A stretch of 64,000 nucleotides of DNA from Paramecium tetraurelia (Eukaryota > Ciliophora > Oligohymenophorea > Peniculida > Parameciidae): assembly GCF_000165425.1 (NCBI RefSeq), contig NW_001799233.1, positions 375,256 through 439,255 on the forward strand. Direction: 5' to 3'. Positions within the stretch are counted from its first letter, which is position 1, and each line of letters starts with the position of its first letter. The notes under the pieces are model-generated. The model saw only the letters and a list, made by a program, of their open reading frames with translations. It did no database searches and was not told the DNA's origin. The translations under genes and the position numbers were made by a program. Positions 28,194 through 58,378 of the stretch are shown here, piece by piece.

Positions 28194-28721
28194 TTTGTTA
28201 CAAATTAAGTGATAAATGATTCACTACTTATTTTAAATATTTATATTTTCAAATTTTGTTATACAGCTTTATATTCTAAATGTATAATTCAAATTAAATT
28301 CTGATATTCAAAAGAGAATACCCTCACATTTAAATCAGTTCCAACTCCAAATTGCATTTAACCTCTCAAGTGTCTCTGTACAAAAATAATTACTATTTAT
28401 GATGATACATAAGATTGACTAAGAATTAACCTCATAATATGTATCTTGTCATTTGATAGTTTATTTCCGAAGGTAGCAACTGATTGCTAAGCCTTTTTTA
28501 TCTAAATTTGAATAAAATGTTATATCAAGTAGAAAAATCATTATAAATTATAAATGTAAGTTCATTAATGAACGTGATGCCGAAGAATTGCATTGGGTTT
28601 ATTAATTTGATATTTGGTTCTTCTACTGTGTTTCTGTGAGAGTGTCGATGTTGTAGTGTGATAAGATTTCATTTTAGATTTAAGAATGCGATTATATGGA
28701 ATAAATTTATATAATTTAAGA
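28194..28721. other. Gap upstream of the flippase gene
   Basis: On the minus strand a protein-like stretch (ATFGNKLSNDKIHIM and, after a gap, HLRGQMQFGVGTDLNVR) lies at about 28330-28500. It could be part of a small gene with a start near 28540, but I could not build a convincing model or name it. The rest is AT-rich spacer. Confidence 0.4.
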
Positions 28722-31700
28722 ATGGAACGTAAACTCTACTTCGGGACTACACAACAATTGTAAAATAAGCAATACTAATATCCAACTAATTTTATACGGA
28801 CAAGCAGGTATTCATTAATTCATATTTGAGGTACAATATGATAACCTTCCTACCATATTCCTTAGCATTGCAATTCTAAAGGATGGCAAACATCTATTTT
28901 CTTATTATTGCTATCTTGTCTTTTTTTAAATCCATTTCCCCATTTAGCCCTATAAATTCTATTGCACCTTTGCTCTTTGTGGTGTCCTTGTCCATGTTAA
29001 GAGATGGATATGAAGATTATCAAAAACATCTTAGTGACAATGAATTGAATTCATCTCCCACTACCATTTGGACTAGTGGGGGTTTTGTGAAGAAAACATG
29101 GAAAGATGTACTCATGGGAGATATAATAAAAATTGATGAATTGGAAATAATCTCTGCTGACATAGTGGTGTTATAAACCTCTTAAGACGGGATCTGTTTT
29201 ATCGAAACCTCCTCTTTGGATGGGGAGAAGAATTTGAAACCGAAACAAGCAGTCAAAGAGACCTAAACTATGGAATGCAGAGAAGGAGTTATTGAATGTA
29301 TAAATCCGAATGCTTTGCTTTACAATTTCGATGGAACACTCTTTTTGGAGAGCAAGAAAATTCAATTAACACATAAGAACTTTTTATTGAGAGGATCAAA
29401 ATTGAAAAATGTTAAATGGGCCATAGGAGTTGTGGTTTATACTGGAATAGACACAAAAGTAATGAGGAATTCCGAGAAGCAGAAAAACAAAATGAGCAAC
29501 ATAGACAGATTGATTAATGTCAGAATTATTTATATCTTGATTATGCAGACATTTTCTTGCCTAATTTTAGCAATTATCTATGGAATTAATTGCGACATTC
29601 ATAACATAAATTTTGATTACTTTAGTAGAAGCTTTGCTGGCTATACATCTTATAATGGAGATGATGATATCTATGATCCAGACATCCCTAATTGTGCTTT
29701 GGCTTCATTGATGACCTTTGCAGCCTATTTCCTACTTTTAAACACTCTTATACCAATAAGTCTAATAGTATCTTTGGAATTTGTAAAAGTAGGTTAGGGA
29801 ATATTTATGTAAAAGGATAGGGAAATGTACACTGCTGAAAATGATAAGTATGTCAAAGTGTTTAGTACGACTATTAACGAGGAATTGGGGTAGGTTCAAT
29901 ATGTATTTTCAGATAAAACAGGTACTTTAACTTGTAACAAAATGGAATTCAAATTATCTGTCTGTGGAAATGAAACTTATGGAGATGTATCCATGTTTGA
30001 TAAGCATGAAATGAGCACTTTTGTAGGTAATTAGATCATAAGAAGACAGAGCACTTTGCATTCTAGAAGATCCACAGTTGTTAATGAAAAAGCTGGCATT
30101 GAATATACATTCTCTGGTGCAGTCATTTAATCGATCATTACTGAAACTGATCCTATGAAGAATCCTAATATAGGTCTTAATGTGGATACCTATTTGATCA
30201 GAAATCAAGGAGATTTAGTCAAGGAAAACCTTATGTTGCTAGCCACTTGTCATGAGTGTGTTCTTGAATTTTAAGATGATGGCACATTTAATTATCAAGG
30301 ACCATCTCCAGATGAAATAGCATTAGTGGATGCTGCTAGAAGGTTAAACATAGTCTATAGAGGGATTACAATGGGTATGATGGAAGTAGATGTGCTTGGG
30401 GTTAAGGAAAAGGTTGAACTTCTGTTTTCCTTTGAATTTAATAGTGATAGAAAGAGAATGTCTGTAATCATTAAGCACAAGGGTGTGATTAAACTATATA
30501 CTAAAGGCGCTGATGCAATTATCAAATAAAGATTGGGTCCGAATCAACCATTTCTAGCTGGGATTGATAAAAAATTGGATATGTTCTCAAGGAAGGGATT
30601 GAGAACTCTATGCTTAGCTATGAGAGTTCTTGATGAGAAATAATTCAATGAATTTTCATAAGCTATGAATGATACTCTCGGTGGGAATGACGCTGAAAAA
30701 TAGTAAACTGAATTAATTAATAAAATTGAACAGAATCTTACACTCATTGGAGCTACGGCTGTTGAGGATAAATTATAAGACGATGTTCCAGAAACATTAG
30801 CAGATTTTCTTAAAGCAAATATTAATGTGTGGATGTTGACTGGAGATAAGTTGGAAACAGCTGAAAATATTGGCAGATCCTGTAATTTGCTATAAGAGTA
30901 AATGGATGTTTTCTTTTTAACTCCTGGTTGTGATATCCTATAAATATTTAATAGAATCGCAGATCATGTTATATAGAAACCTACTACTAAAAGAGCTATG
31001 ATTATAGAAGGTATTGTATTGGCTGTTCTGAGTGAAAATGAAAATCTAACTAAATATTTAGTTTTGTTAGCTCCTCATCTTCATACAGTTATTTGTTGTA
31101 GGGTAACTCCAAAACAAAAAGCAGATATGGTTAGATTAGTTAAGAATGAATTAGGAAAGATTACTCTGGCAGTTGGAGATGGTGCTAATGATGTTAATAT
31201 GATTTAGGAGGCACATATTGGTATTGGGATTTATGGTCAAGAAGGTATGAGAGCTGTTTAAGCTAGTAATTATGCTATTGGTGAATTTAAATGTCTTTGG
31301 AAATTAGTGTTATTTCATGGAAGATAGAACTACATTCGTATTTCTGAAATGATTTTATACTTCTTTTACAAAAATATCATATTCACTGTCCCTCAATTCT
31401 ATTTTGCCTTCTTTTGTGGATTAACTGGAACCAGTGTGTTTGATGAATTGTATTATTTCTTATCATTTAACCTAGCTTTGTCTCATTTTACAACACAGTG
31501 TTTACATTCCTACCTGTGGTCATAAGAGCCATTTTTGATGAAGATGTTTTCTATACACAATAAAGAAAGGAAACATTATTAGGCAGCAAAAGAATTACAT
31601 AAGGAGTAGAGGAGAATGACATACTCAAATAAAGTTATCCATTGCTTTATTACATTGGACAAAAAAACACTATATTTACAAACGAAAAGTAATTAATGGG

Positions 31701-32350
31701 TTTATTATATATAGATTTTTTAAATGGTTTTCAATTGGAATTTTCTAAGGATTGGCATGCTTCTTTTCGTTTTACCTAGAATTAAATGATACTACTTTCA
31801 TTAAACAATCTGGATATAACAATGATTTATGGTTCTTTAGTATGTCAATGTCTACTGCCATCATGATAGTAATCAATTAATTAATTATTAGCTAGTCACA
31901 TTAAAACTAGCTTTGAATACTCAATTTTGGACAATCATAACATGGATTGCCTATTTAGGAACCAGTCTAGGTACTTACTTTGCTTATATGTGGATATCCA
32001 ACATTATACCTTCAGCTGCCATCTTTGGAACTACTTAGATGCTATTTTCAAGCTATGCGTTTTATCTTAGTCTGGCATTATCTGTATTATCAATGTTTAT
32101 TCTTGATTTATTGATGTTCACTATCAAGACATCAAAGGACACTTTACTTAACTATATGAAAAGATAAGCTAGATAAAATTAACAATTAGATATCGCTAAA
32201 ATATCCAAGTTAGAGAAAAAACTATAAGAACAAATTTCAGAAATGGAAATGCCTGGATTTGAATTGTTTCAAAAAAGAAGTTTGGTTGATTCTAGTTTCT
32301 CATTAAGTGATAATACTTCAAAAGATGGAGATAGAAAGGATAATTAATGA
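28722..32350 (+). CDS. P4-type ATPase (phospholipid flippase)
   Basis: It moves phospholipids from the outer to the inner membrane leaflet. The order of motifs is complete: N-terminal [11 protein letters not shown], the actuator loop [10 protein letters not shown] (the family usually has DGET), the phosphorylation site [13 protein letters not shown] (Asp at about 29912), [40 protein letters not shown] and [11 protein letters not shown], then C-terminal TM helices with [19 protein letters not shown]. At least four introns of 23-26 nt were inferred: near 28807, 31452, 31691 and 31867. About 1,175 residues and ten TM segments are expected. The Lys in DGEK instead of Thr is worth noting but probably lineage-specific. 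The helper Cdc50 protein is not in the window. TGA at 32348-32350. Confidence 0.93.
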
Positions 32351-34354: not shown

Positions 34355-34673
34355 ATGGCAGATCAATCATAGGCAGAATATTTGAACTTAAAAGTGAAAT
34401 CCTAAGATGGTGAAGAGGTTTTCTTTAAAATCAAAAAATAAACTCAATTTAAGAAGTTGATGGATGCCTATTGTTCTAGGCAAAATGTATTATGAAGTGA
34501 TTAATTTAGCTCCAAATCTAAAATGTTAGATTTTTATTTGATGGAGAAAGAATTTTGGAGACCTAAACACCAGCAGATGTATAATGTATTCCGTTATCTA
34601 TTAGATTGGAATGGAAACTGGAGATGAGATTGATGTTGTAATTGAATAAGTTGGTGGATATAAAATAATGTGA
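34355..34673 (+). CDS. SUMO: SUMO (ubiquitin-like modifier) precursor
   Basis: A protein modifier conjugated to lysines of target proteins. After removal of a 23-nt and a 26-nt intron the frame is exactly 90 codons. It reads LNLKVKSQDGEEVFFKIKK, then KKLMDAYCSRQN, VRFLFDGERILETQTPADI, METGDEIDVVIEQVGG and the tail YKIM. The beta-grasp core and the sequence QxGG match SUMO rather than ubiquitin or NEDD8. The diglycine is followed by four residues, so a SUMO protease must trim the precursor. The N-terminal arm is short (about 10 residues) and lacks a consensus SUMOylation site, so self-chains of the SUMO2/3 type are less likely. Confidence 0.93.
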
Positions 34674-34704: not shown

Positions 34705-37024
34705 ATGCTTACCATCTTTCTCTTCCTAGTTTTTTAGGTTAATTGTGGAGATATTTAATTGTATAACTAATACGGATCCATCCTTTAGGATAAAATTTTA
34801 GTACACTCAATATACATATAATAGATTATTACTAAAAATGGATAGATTTACAATTATGATCTAAAGTTCTAATAGATTCTTTGGGTATCATAATTAGGGA
34901 TCTCTCTTCAATCCGAGAATGTCAAAAACTCTACACACTACTTACAAACTTATAGAGATGGCACATACTTACTTTACGATGATTTCCTATATGTAATTCT
35001 ACAAACTAACTTAGGAAATAGAACAAGATGATATTAATCTATTGTTTAGCACTTGTAACATGTTTAAAAATTCCCTTGTTTTCAATAATAATCTGGCATT
35101 TTTTATGGATATAACAACAGGAAATTTAAAAAAACTAAATCAATTCGATGTGCAGTAGATTTTAAAGAAACCTAAACTTTACCAATAAGGAGTTCTAATC
35201 AATGTATAACAATAGTATATTTCTCATTTGGAATATGAATTCTCTCAGTTTTATAATTCTAGAGTCTATATTAATTTCTTATTGCAATAAATTCGAAGTA
35301 ACTAAACATTTAAATCACATTCGAATACTACTCAAATATGGAAAACTTAGAATGGAATTTACGTCAAATGGAACAACAAAACCTTTGATTTATATTTAGA
35401 TAATGAGGTGTTTCAAGTCTTTGCATATGATAATTTAGATGGATTATAATCTTTACCAATATACAGAGATCAAATAGAATCAAAAAGTTTAGCAATAATA
35501 TCAATTTCAAATAGCAACTTTTAATGCGAACAAGATGGATAATGTTTGCAAACTGATTTTAAACCTACAACGGCTCTAGGTATCTACAAAGAGACAGAAT
35601 TAAAATAGTGTTTAAATGAATTCTATTATGCAAAGGCCTCAAAATTACCTATGGTTTATCAATAAAATACTCCTTAAACCATAGAATAATGCTTTGAGAT
35701 TCACAATGATGATGGATCTTTCGCGATGATATTGCTGACTATAATTGTTATTGGGTCTGCTTTATTGACAAGATTTAAATTTAAAAAGCAAAAGCAGAAC
35801 TTTTAGATAAATGTTAAGGAATCAAATATAGAATTAAAATATATTTAATAGAATTAAATCTAATTCAATGAATTGGAAATCATAGGATAAGGTTCGAATG
35901 GAACCAATATTCACGAGGGTTTTTTTTAAAACAAAACAGTTGCTGTTAAAGATATAAATTTATTGAATATATCCTAAAGTATGCTCAGTGGTGAATTAGA
36001 GAAATCATTTGCTCAATAAATGTCTTTAACTTCTGAAAAATTTATAAAACTATATTTCTATGAAAAAAGAAATAATCACTTATATTTAGCTATGGAAAAA
36101 GGTTTAATTAATTTAAAAGATTTTGTAAAATATGATTCTTGTAATAAATTAAATGATTCACTCAAAATCAAAATAAAATAAAACCTTTTAGACCCTAATT
36201 TTTATAAGTCGTTTATACATAATTTATTAATTGGACTTTAAGAACTAGAAGAAAAACAAATTAAACATCATGGATTAGATCAAGAAAATATCATATTTAA
36301 TCAAGACCTGCAAGTGTACTTTGCTGATCTTGGAATGTCTTAGAGAGCTGATTATTATAGAAGTAAGACTAAATCAACTAACTCTCATTTCTTCCATAGT
36401 TATAATTTGAAGTAATAATTAGGAGCAATATTTTACTATTTACTATCAAGAGGAGATGATCTTAAAAATTTATCCTAAATAAATCTTAAGGCTATTTTGA
36501 ATAAATTTAAGAAATACAACATCAAAGAATTAGATATTAGAGACTTGACTCTGAAATTGCTTTTTGATGGGCCAATAATTGATTATGATAATCTACTTTC
36601 GCACCCTTACTTTTGGACAAAAGAAAGAAAACTAAAGTTTATTTGTGAATTTAGCGATTATATCGAAACCTTCCCATAAAAACCAGGTTAAATTACTTTA
36701 TAGGAGATCTGCATTTAAAACTAAGTTTTTAAAGATAATTGGGGCAATAAATGCGAAATACTTTTAAAAGAACAAATTCGAGGATATGATAAGACCTAAG
36801 CCTTATAGTTGATAAGAGTATAAAATTAATATTATAATTAATAGCTTATTCGTAATACTAAGAATCATTACCATTAGCTTACAAAGAATAGTAAATAGTT
36901 ATTAGGAAATTCTGATAGAGACTTATTTGATTATTGGAATAAAAACTTTCCAAATTTATTCTTTACTCTTTACTAATATTCATGTGAAAATAACTTCAAC
37001 TTATTAAGTATTAAATAAAATTGA
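34705..37024 (+). CDS. IRE1: ER stress sensor IRE1: kinase-like plus KEN RNase, with degenerate kinase site
   Basis: A type I ER membrane protein of about 756 residues. It has a signal peptide (MLTIFLFLVFQVNC), a luminal domain with repeated beta segments (DGTYLLYDD, NNNLAFFMDITTGNLKKL), one TM (FAMILLTIIVIGSALL) and a cytoplasmic kinase-like domain with IIGQGSNG and VAVKDI (beta-3 Lys kept). HRD reads HHG (36266-36274, residue 514 on) and the following Lys is Asp; DFG reads DLG with its Asp kept (36326-36334). The C-terminal KEN domain begins at HPYFWTKERKLKFICEFSD. Tyr687, Arg700, Asn701 and His705 line up with human RNase residues Tyr892, Arg905, Asn906 and His910 at identical spacing. Introns of 22 nt (near 35000) and 27 nt (36818-36844) were inferred. 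IRE1 splices or degrades mRNAs in the unfolded protein response. Confidence 0.92.
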
Positions 37025-57123: not shown

Positions 57124-57316
57124 TTGATGTCTAATTTTTATAAATAATTTCTTATTTTATAAGTGATTATATTTTTAGTTAGTTACATATTACATTGTAA
57201 GTGAATGCGAGCATTAGATCAATAAATAAAAGAGGTAAAGGATATTAGTAATTAAACTTAAATTGAAGCAAATGAAATTAGTTTGTTATAATTAATTTTT
57301 GATTTAATATTAAGCT

Positions 57317-58378
57317 ATGCTTTAAAATAAACCATCTAGGTCACTGTCTCATCATACTAAAATCACAGATTATATGAAAAAATTTATTGAAACTAATTAT
57401 CGAGTATCGATCCCATCGTCCATGAAATAGAGTAGATAAAATAAGCAGAATAGATCGATTGATAAAACATCCAATGTTTTTAAAGTATTTGAATGGTTAA
57501 AATAGGTAGACCTTCCAAATGTCTAGCAGAATGTTTGTCTGAAACAAAGTTAACACAACAAATAAGAGAAAGAAAGAGAGTTATTGATTCTAAAAGCACT
57601 CCAAAAGTATCATCATCCTTGCATTATAGAACTGAGACATCATTTTATGAATAATAATCAAACAAATATGCTCTTTGATTTTATGCCCCTAAATCTCACT
57701 TAAGTAATTTAGGGACACAGGTAGAGAAATAAAGAAATTCCTCTAATATTAATTAAATCATTCGCATTTTAACTTCTAAGAGCAATTACTTAATTACACG
57801 AATGCCAAATCTGTCATAGGAATATACAGCCAGATAATATCCTAATTAATAATAATACCTTTGAATTAAGATTGGCAGACTTTTCACAAGCGAAGTTTTT
57901 AATTGAAGGAGAAGATTCCATTAACAACGTTAATAATGTAAAATACAGAGCTCCAGAATTGTTACTTGGAACCACCAAGTACAATAACTCAATTGATTTA
58001 TGGGCTTATGGCTGTGTAATTTATGAGATGTGGACATTGAATGCTGTTTTTGAAGGCAACACACCAGAGGAAGTTATCGCAGAGATAATCAAGATTCTAG
58101 GAGTGCCAAAGAAGCATGAATTATAATCAATGAAGAGTTAATTTGAGGATATTAAGATGCCTCAAATAAAGAAAAAGGAATGGGAATTCAGTGAAACAAT
58201 GGAATTCATAAAACAGTTTATTAAATACAATCCAACTTATAGAGGAAAGGCTCAATAATATCTGAATCATTCATTCTTTAAGGATGTTCTATCTGGTTAG
58301 ATTCGTCTAAATGGAAGGGAATTGCCAAATATAAAAAACCTTAAACCTTATGAGTTAGAAATATTAAGGCTAGAATGA
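57317..58378 (+). CDS. GSK3/CMGC-like pseudokinase
   Basis: An intronless 353-residue frame. The C-lobe is clearly of the GSK3 type: CHRNIQPDNILINN, KYRAPELLLGTTKYNNSIDLWAYGCVIYEM, FEGNTPEEVIAEIIKILGVPKKHEL and a C-terminal HSFFKDV (HPFF-like). The catalytic sites are altered. HRD reads HRN (57815-57823, residue 169 = Asn), the usual Lys two residues on is Gln, DFG reads DFS (57878-57886), and no Gly-rich loop precedes the beta-3 block NVCLKQS. The activation-segment Tyr of GSK3 is absent. Catalysis is therefore unlikely; a scaffold role is inferred. The N-terminus is basic and Ser-rich (MLQNKPSRSLSHHTK). A 21-nt stretch near 57472 could be an in-frame intron rather than coding. Confidence 0.82.

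Follow-up and report, generated by a model that had tools for sequence, protein, structure and literature searches.

Introduction

The RNase of IRE1 can be activated without phosphorylation, and what purpose autophosphorylation then serves has been studied with mutants and drugs. In yeast Ire1 the double substitution D797N/K799N abolishes autophosphorylation and HAC1 splicing still follows ER stress; the same substitutions are reported to let the protein activate without capturing ADP (PMC7904763). The recombinant mutant is described as unphosphorylated but with readily detectable RNase activity, and it oligomerizes and cleaves at higher concentration. Its ADP binding constants are similar to those without the mutation, whereas its activation by ADP is approximately fivefold as against approximately 200-fold (PMC3158555). 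Results from two other organisms oppose a general dispensability of the kinase. A D/K kinase-dead Ire1 failed to complement in C. glabrata (PMC3561209), and both activities are reported to be required in Dictyostelium IreA (PMC6025073).

A pseudokinase has been defined by the loss of at least one of three residues, the β3 Lys, the HRD Asp and the DFG Asp, and RNase L is accepted as a nucleotide-binding pseudokinase joined to the same type of RNase (PMC4718504). In the open-licence literature, covered mostly at the level of titles and abstract openings, no description was found of a natural kinase-dead IRE1, of an IRE1 pseudokinase, or of IRE1 or the unfolded protein response in Paramecium or other ciliates. 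The gene described here lies in a stretch of 64,000 nucleotides of Paramecium tetraurelia DNA, which was analysed as a whole and is referred to as the window. By analogy, the protein that it encodes is functionally closest to two described systems, RNase L and yeast Ire1 with D797N/K799N.

Gene model and domain organization

The reading of TAA and TAG as glutamine and introns of 22–27 nt are traits of Paramecium, and both are seen in the IRE1-like gene. It occupies positions 34705–37024 of the plus strand and, translated with NCBI table 6 to a TGA stop, encodes 748 amino acids after the removal of three introns, all of which are predictions from the DNA sequence. Intron 1 (34801–34824, 24 nt) and intron 3 (36818–36844, 27 nt) have the form GTA...TAG, and intron 2 (34993–35014, 22 nt) is placed at a frame break. 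As introns 1 and 3 are multiples of three in length and free of TGA, no frame break is visible at either. They are supported by a sister gene on contig C80, in which introns of 23 and 22 nt, both of which shift the frame, occupy these two sites; its counterpart of intron 2 is also 22 nt long. The initial annotation had modelled two introns and overlooked the first, for which the 23-nt frame-shifting intron of the sister gene speaks. Residue numbers beyond intron 1 are consequently eight lower here than in that reading. If retained, intron 3 would add nine residues two residues ahead of the catalytic R692, and retention of its 22-nt counterpart in the sister gene would shift the frame. A single-sequence AlphaFold2 model of the kinase–KEN region with intron 3 read through, and hence with nine extra residues, gave a mean pLDDT of 35.1 and a pTM of 0.19 and was discarded.

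The protein has the domain order of yeast and human IRE1, with a signal-peptide-like start, a lumen-sized region, one transmembrane segment, a kinase-like domain and a KEN RNase domain. Its hydropathy profile contains two peaks only, beginning at residues 1 and 322. The first is the hydrophobic N-terminus (residues 1–19, 34705–34761, plus strand; Kyte–Doolittle mean 1.59 over 19 residues), and the second, the highest in the protein, is the transmembrane segment (residues 322–340, 35714–35770, plus strand; mean 2.21 over 19 residues). Hydropathy therefore provides the ER-signal-like start, and the single membrane span between predicted sensor and kinase, by which an IRE1 is recognized. Pfam assigns Ribonuc_2-5A (E 1.6e-20) and Pkinase (E 2.4e-9), both above cut-off, and the top 16 matches of a PDB profile search are all IRE1 (best 4.7e-30). 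RNase L does not appear in the 60 PDB rows displayed for the protein, and no ankyrin family is found among its Pfam matches up to E 1.

Searched against PDB sequences, both as a single sequence and as a two-sequence profile, the luminal region gave no match to a luminal domain, and no Pfam family scored above cut-off. A BamB-like match was the only one obtained, and it is weak (E 0.0067, far under the family cut-off). A sensing role for this region is predicted from its position. By its sequence, the window gene is an IRE1 in architecture and RNase and a pseudokinase in its catalytic centre.

Further upstream in the window, a frame at 28640–31786 (plus strand) contains the domains of a phospholipid-translocating P-type ATPase.

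The degenerate kinase site

The catalytic loop of the kinase-like domain reads HHGLDQEN (H506–N513). It is encoded by CATCATGGATTAGATCAAGAAAAT at 36266–36289 of the plus strand, a sequence that occurs once in the window and gave a mean of 0.00 matches over 100 shuffles. Against the PDB rows of yeast (3fbv) and human (4pl3) IRE1, HRDLKP.N is replaced by HHGLDQEN, and by HHGITPDN in the sister copy. The catalytic Asp has thereby become G508 and the following Lys D510, and the metal-binding Asn is retained as N513. Both changes had been noticed in the initial annotation, as had the retention of the β3 Lys and of the metal-binding Asp; the latter are located at K400 in VAVK (35948–35950, plus strand, by PDB profile alignment) and D526 in DLG. 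A glycine-rich loop, G379xG381xxG384, lies at 35885–35902 (plus strand). The GxGxxG loop, VAVK, the Asn and the DFG/DLG Asp are common to both copies, and the HRD Arg (now His), the catalytic Asp, the Lys that follows it and the APE motif are absent from both.

The degeneration goes further than had been described, since the HRD Arg is also lost and the activation segment is reduced. This segment runs from D526 to G558 (36326–36424, plus strand) without an APE-like motif. Both copies have 33 residues in this span, which begins at the DFG Asp and ends at the Gly preceding the FYY motif; human IRE1 has 51 and yeast IRE1 52. Neither the Asp and Lys expected of an active kinase (HHGLD in the window copy, HHGIT in the sister copy) nor a full activation segment with APE is present, and the loss of the HRD Asp from both copies places them among pseudokinases by the definition given above.

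Kinases of the same genome provide a control. A kinase search listed 135 matches and gave 4221 first-look candidates. The 30 best of the 135, a sample biased towards canonical kinases, all have [HY]RD and a Lys two positions further along; 29 of them were read by script and one, L038, by eye.

A second kinase-like frame lies in the window at 57167–58375 (plus strand; Pkinase E 2.4e-39). It reads HRNIQPDN and DFS and may also encode a pseudokinase. Degenerate kinase sites do therefore occur in this genome, and the proposition that loss of HRD is rare in it was rejected.

A sister copy in the same genome

Searched in its entirety for KEN domains, the genome (69.07 Mb, 231 contigs) yielded two loci, the window gene and a copy on contig C80 (139346–141672, minus strand, four introns, 745 amino acids). 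A protein search with the KEN domain of the window gene returned the same two loci and a weak match on contig C176 (E 0.0719), so that no third KEN gene was detected in the 69.07-Mb genome by either search. Other weak matches within the genome were on C223 (E 0.125) and, with the kinase domain as query, on C167 (E 1.5e-4) and C8 (E 4.3e-4). No relatives were confirmed in the scans of viral contigs or of genome contigs.

The two proteins are 51.2% identical over 744 aligned residues. Identity is highest in the KEN domain (64.8%), followed by the luminal region (51.0%) and the kinase-like domain (48.0%). Over 744 codons pN is 0.307 and pS 0.727; amino-acid change is thus constrained, and as synonymous sites are saturated dN/dS can be stated only imprecisely. 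A SUMO-like gene lies upstream of the IRE1-like gene in both loci (in the window its start is at 34355–34492, plus strand; Rad60-SLD E 5.7e-11), an arrangement that duplication of a whole segment would produce.

The initial annotation had regarded a second, intact IRE1 paralogue as the finding that would turn the window gene into a decaying copy. A paralogue does exist, but it too carries HHG (HHGITPDN, with Thr for Lys, and the metal motif DFG) and the same 33-residue segment, and so is not intact. That both copies read HHG at 51% identity argues against a read error or the decay of one copy.

The KEN RNase domain

The RNase domain retains its catalytic residues in alignment. Y679 (36785–36787, plus strand) corresponds to human Y892, and R692, N693 and H697 lie together with K695 at 36851–36868 (plus strand). 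Y679, R692, N693 and H697 share columns with yeast Y1043, R1056, N1057 and H1061, with human IRE1 also in register. The retention of Tyr, Arg, Asn and His proposed in the initial annotation therefore stands, although the numbers 687, 700, 701 and 705 given there are corrected to 679, 692, 693 and 697. The Arg and His are reported to be required for KEN activity, to which the polar residue that follows the Arg is said to contribute (PMC3710099). A single-sequence query with the domain gave 19 PDB matches up to E 10, of which 16 were IRE1 (E 1.6e-10 to 1.3e-7) and three had E values of at least 0.35. One difference from yeast and human IRE1 is the RNA-binding helix–loop, which is three residues shorter and in which no residue aligns with yeast R1039.

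At the RNase dimer interface, the positions of yeast K992 and Y1059 are occupied by Glu and Lys in both copies. In the window protein these are E633 (36647–36649, plus strand; aligned, with the codon placed by coordinate rule) and K695. Such an acidic/basic pair is shared with S. pombe Ire1, whose output is decay only. The combination of D/E with K/R has been described as an S. pombe-like pattern tied to broad mRNA cleavage, an engineered D/R pair is reported to give tighter RNase dimers, and the pattern is present in most species, human included (PMC8104961).

Decay or splicing of RNA

No candidate for the RtcB ligase was found in the 69-Mb genome by a search that was positive in 9 of 14 control genomes. 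The joining of tRNA exons is left puzzling by this result. A Trl1-type ligase (PF09511, PF08302) had no match in the genome, and likewise none in the control genomes. A search for bZIP proteins gave 51 matches. With RtcB undetected but 51 bZIP matches present, decay is favoured and a spliced transcription-factor target is possible. The Glu/Lys pair would allow decay, which is the favoured output, but does not prove decay to be the sole one, since most species share the pattern.

Discussion

We consider it probable that the window gene encodes a natural IRE1 pseudokinase in which luminal clustering is the switch, bound nucleotide acts as a scaffold, and a live KEN RNase probably cuts mRNAs for decay. 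Unfolded protein in the ER lumen would cause the receptor to cluster. Bound nucleotide would hold the pseudokinase in a dimer-competent shape without phosphate transfer, and back-to-back dimerization, aided by the Glu/Lys interface pair, would turn on the RNase. The output would be cleavage and decay of mRNA rather than splicing and re-ligation. The steps of activation and shut-off that depend on autophosphorylation in other IRE1 proteins would here fall to clustering, nucleotide exchange or another kinase. Clustering and a nucleotide-held pseudokinase are suggested as the switch because the two positions changed are those of yeast D797 and K799; nucleotide binding and RNase activity of the window protein are predicted. 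The initial annotation's idea, an IRE1 that is naturally uncoupled from its kinase but has a live RNase, gains support from HHG in both copies, the lack of a detected third KEN gene and the yeast D797N/K799N precedent.

The resemblance to the described systems is partial in each case. The yeast mutant is altered at the same two positions, but it is engineered and has a full activation segment, whereas here the residues are naturally G/D or G/T and the segment is shortened. RNase L similarly combines a pseudokinase that has nucleotide-binding residues with a KEN RNase (PMC4718504); unlike the window protein with its transmembrane segment, it has ankyrin repeats, is cytosolic and is triggered by 2-5A.

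Some supposed pseudokinases have later proved active by atypical mechanisms (PMC4718504), and the window protein retains the residues that bind nucleotide and metal. HHG could accordingly be a variant active site, with phosphate transferred by an unusual route in which D510 or another acid serves as the base. This is unlikely, as Asp and Lys are both lost, the sister copy has Thr and not Asp at position 510, and in both copies the activation segment is some 18 residues shorter and lacks APE.

It is similarly improbable that the sensor, itself a pseudokinase, is phosphorylated by another ciliate kinase and so keeps its phospho-control. Kinases are abundant in this genome, as the search counts given above indicate, and the activation segment of the window copy offers 10 Ser/Thr/Tyr residues and that of the sister copy 7, but the sequence of this segment is poorly conserved between the two. 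Moreover, the basic pocket formed in yeast by R796 and K833, which are reported as conserved in Ire1 (PMC5533888), is not kept: R796 is replaced by H507, and K833 by Q531 (T530 in the sister copy). Yeast D836 has been described as a partial stand-in for activation-loop phosphorylation (PMC5533888). Both copies carry Asp at the corresponding position, eight residues past that of DFG (D534 in the window copy, D533 in the sister copy), although as one residue within a divergent segment this match may be due to chance.

Could the kinase-like domain be a scaffold that makes no useful use of nucleotide, with clustering alone driving the RNase? The activation of yeast D797N/K799N Ire1 without ADP capture (PMC7904763) is in keeping with this, as is the uncertain αC Glu of the window protein, where spacing gives S413 (Glu in the sister copy) and the invariant E417 requires a four-residue insertion. 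It is nevertheless very doubtful, because the glycine loop, β3 Lys, Asn and DFG/DLG Asp kept in both copies would be needless for such a scaffold, and because the yeast mutation leaves ADP binding constants similar (PMC3158555). A decaying gene, an assembly error or a wrong gene model is scarcely credible: one intron had indeed been overlooked and all are predicted, but an independent copy on another contig shares the motif, the intron positions and the open frames, amino-acid changes are far fewer than synonymous ones, and a read error or lone decaying paralogue was rejected on these grounds.

Beyond the natural pseudokinase proposed for this gene, the whole IRE1 branch in this ciliate lineage may work without kinase activity. 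Every IRE1 in it would be a pseudokinase sensor resembling RNase L, kept poised by nucleotide and a strong RNase-dimer interface, with luminal clustering alone as the trigger and mRNA decay, without a splicing ligase, as the output. We hold this wider proposal tentatively. If true, it would be a natural experiment showing that an unfolded protein response can work without autophosphorylation. Judged by the two sequences, the kinase-dead IRE1 engineered in laboratories seems to have arisen in nature as well, which would add to RNase L another natural example of a KEN RNase under the control of a pseudokinase. A lineage in which two IRE1 copies have diverged and been kept, and in which neither has the catalytic residues, would permit a test of how such a sensor is switched off and would show that evolution can do without autophosphorylation.
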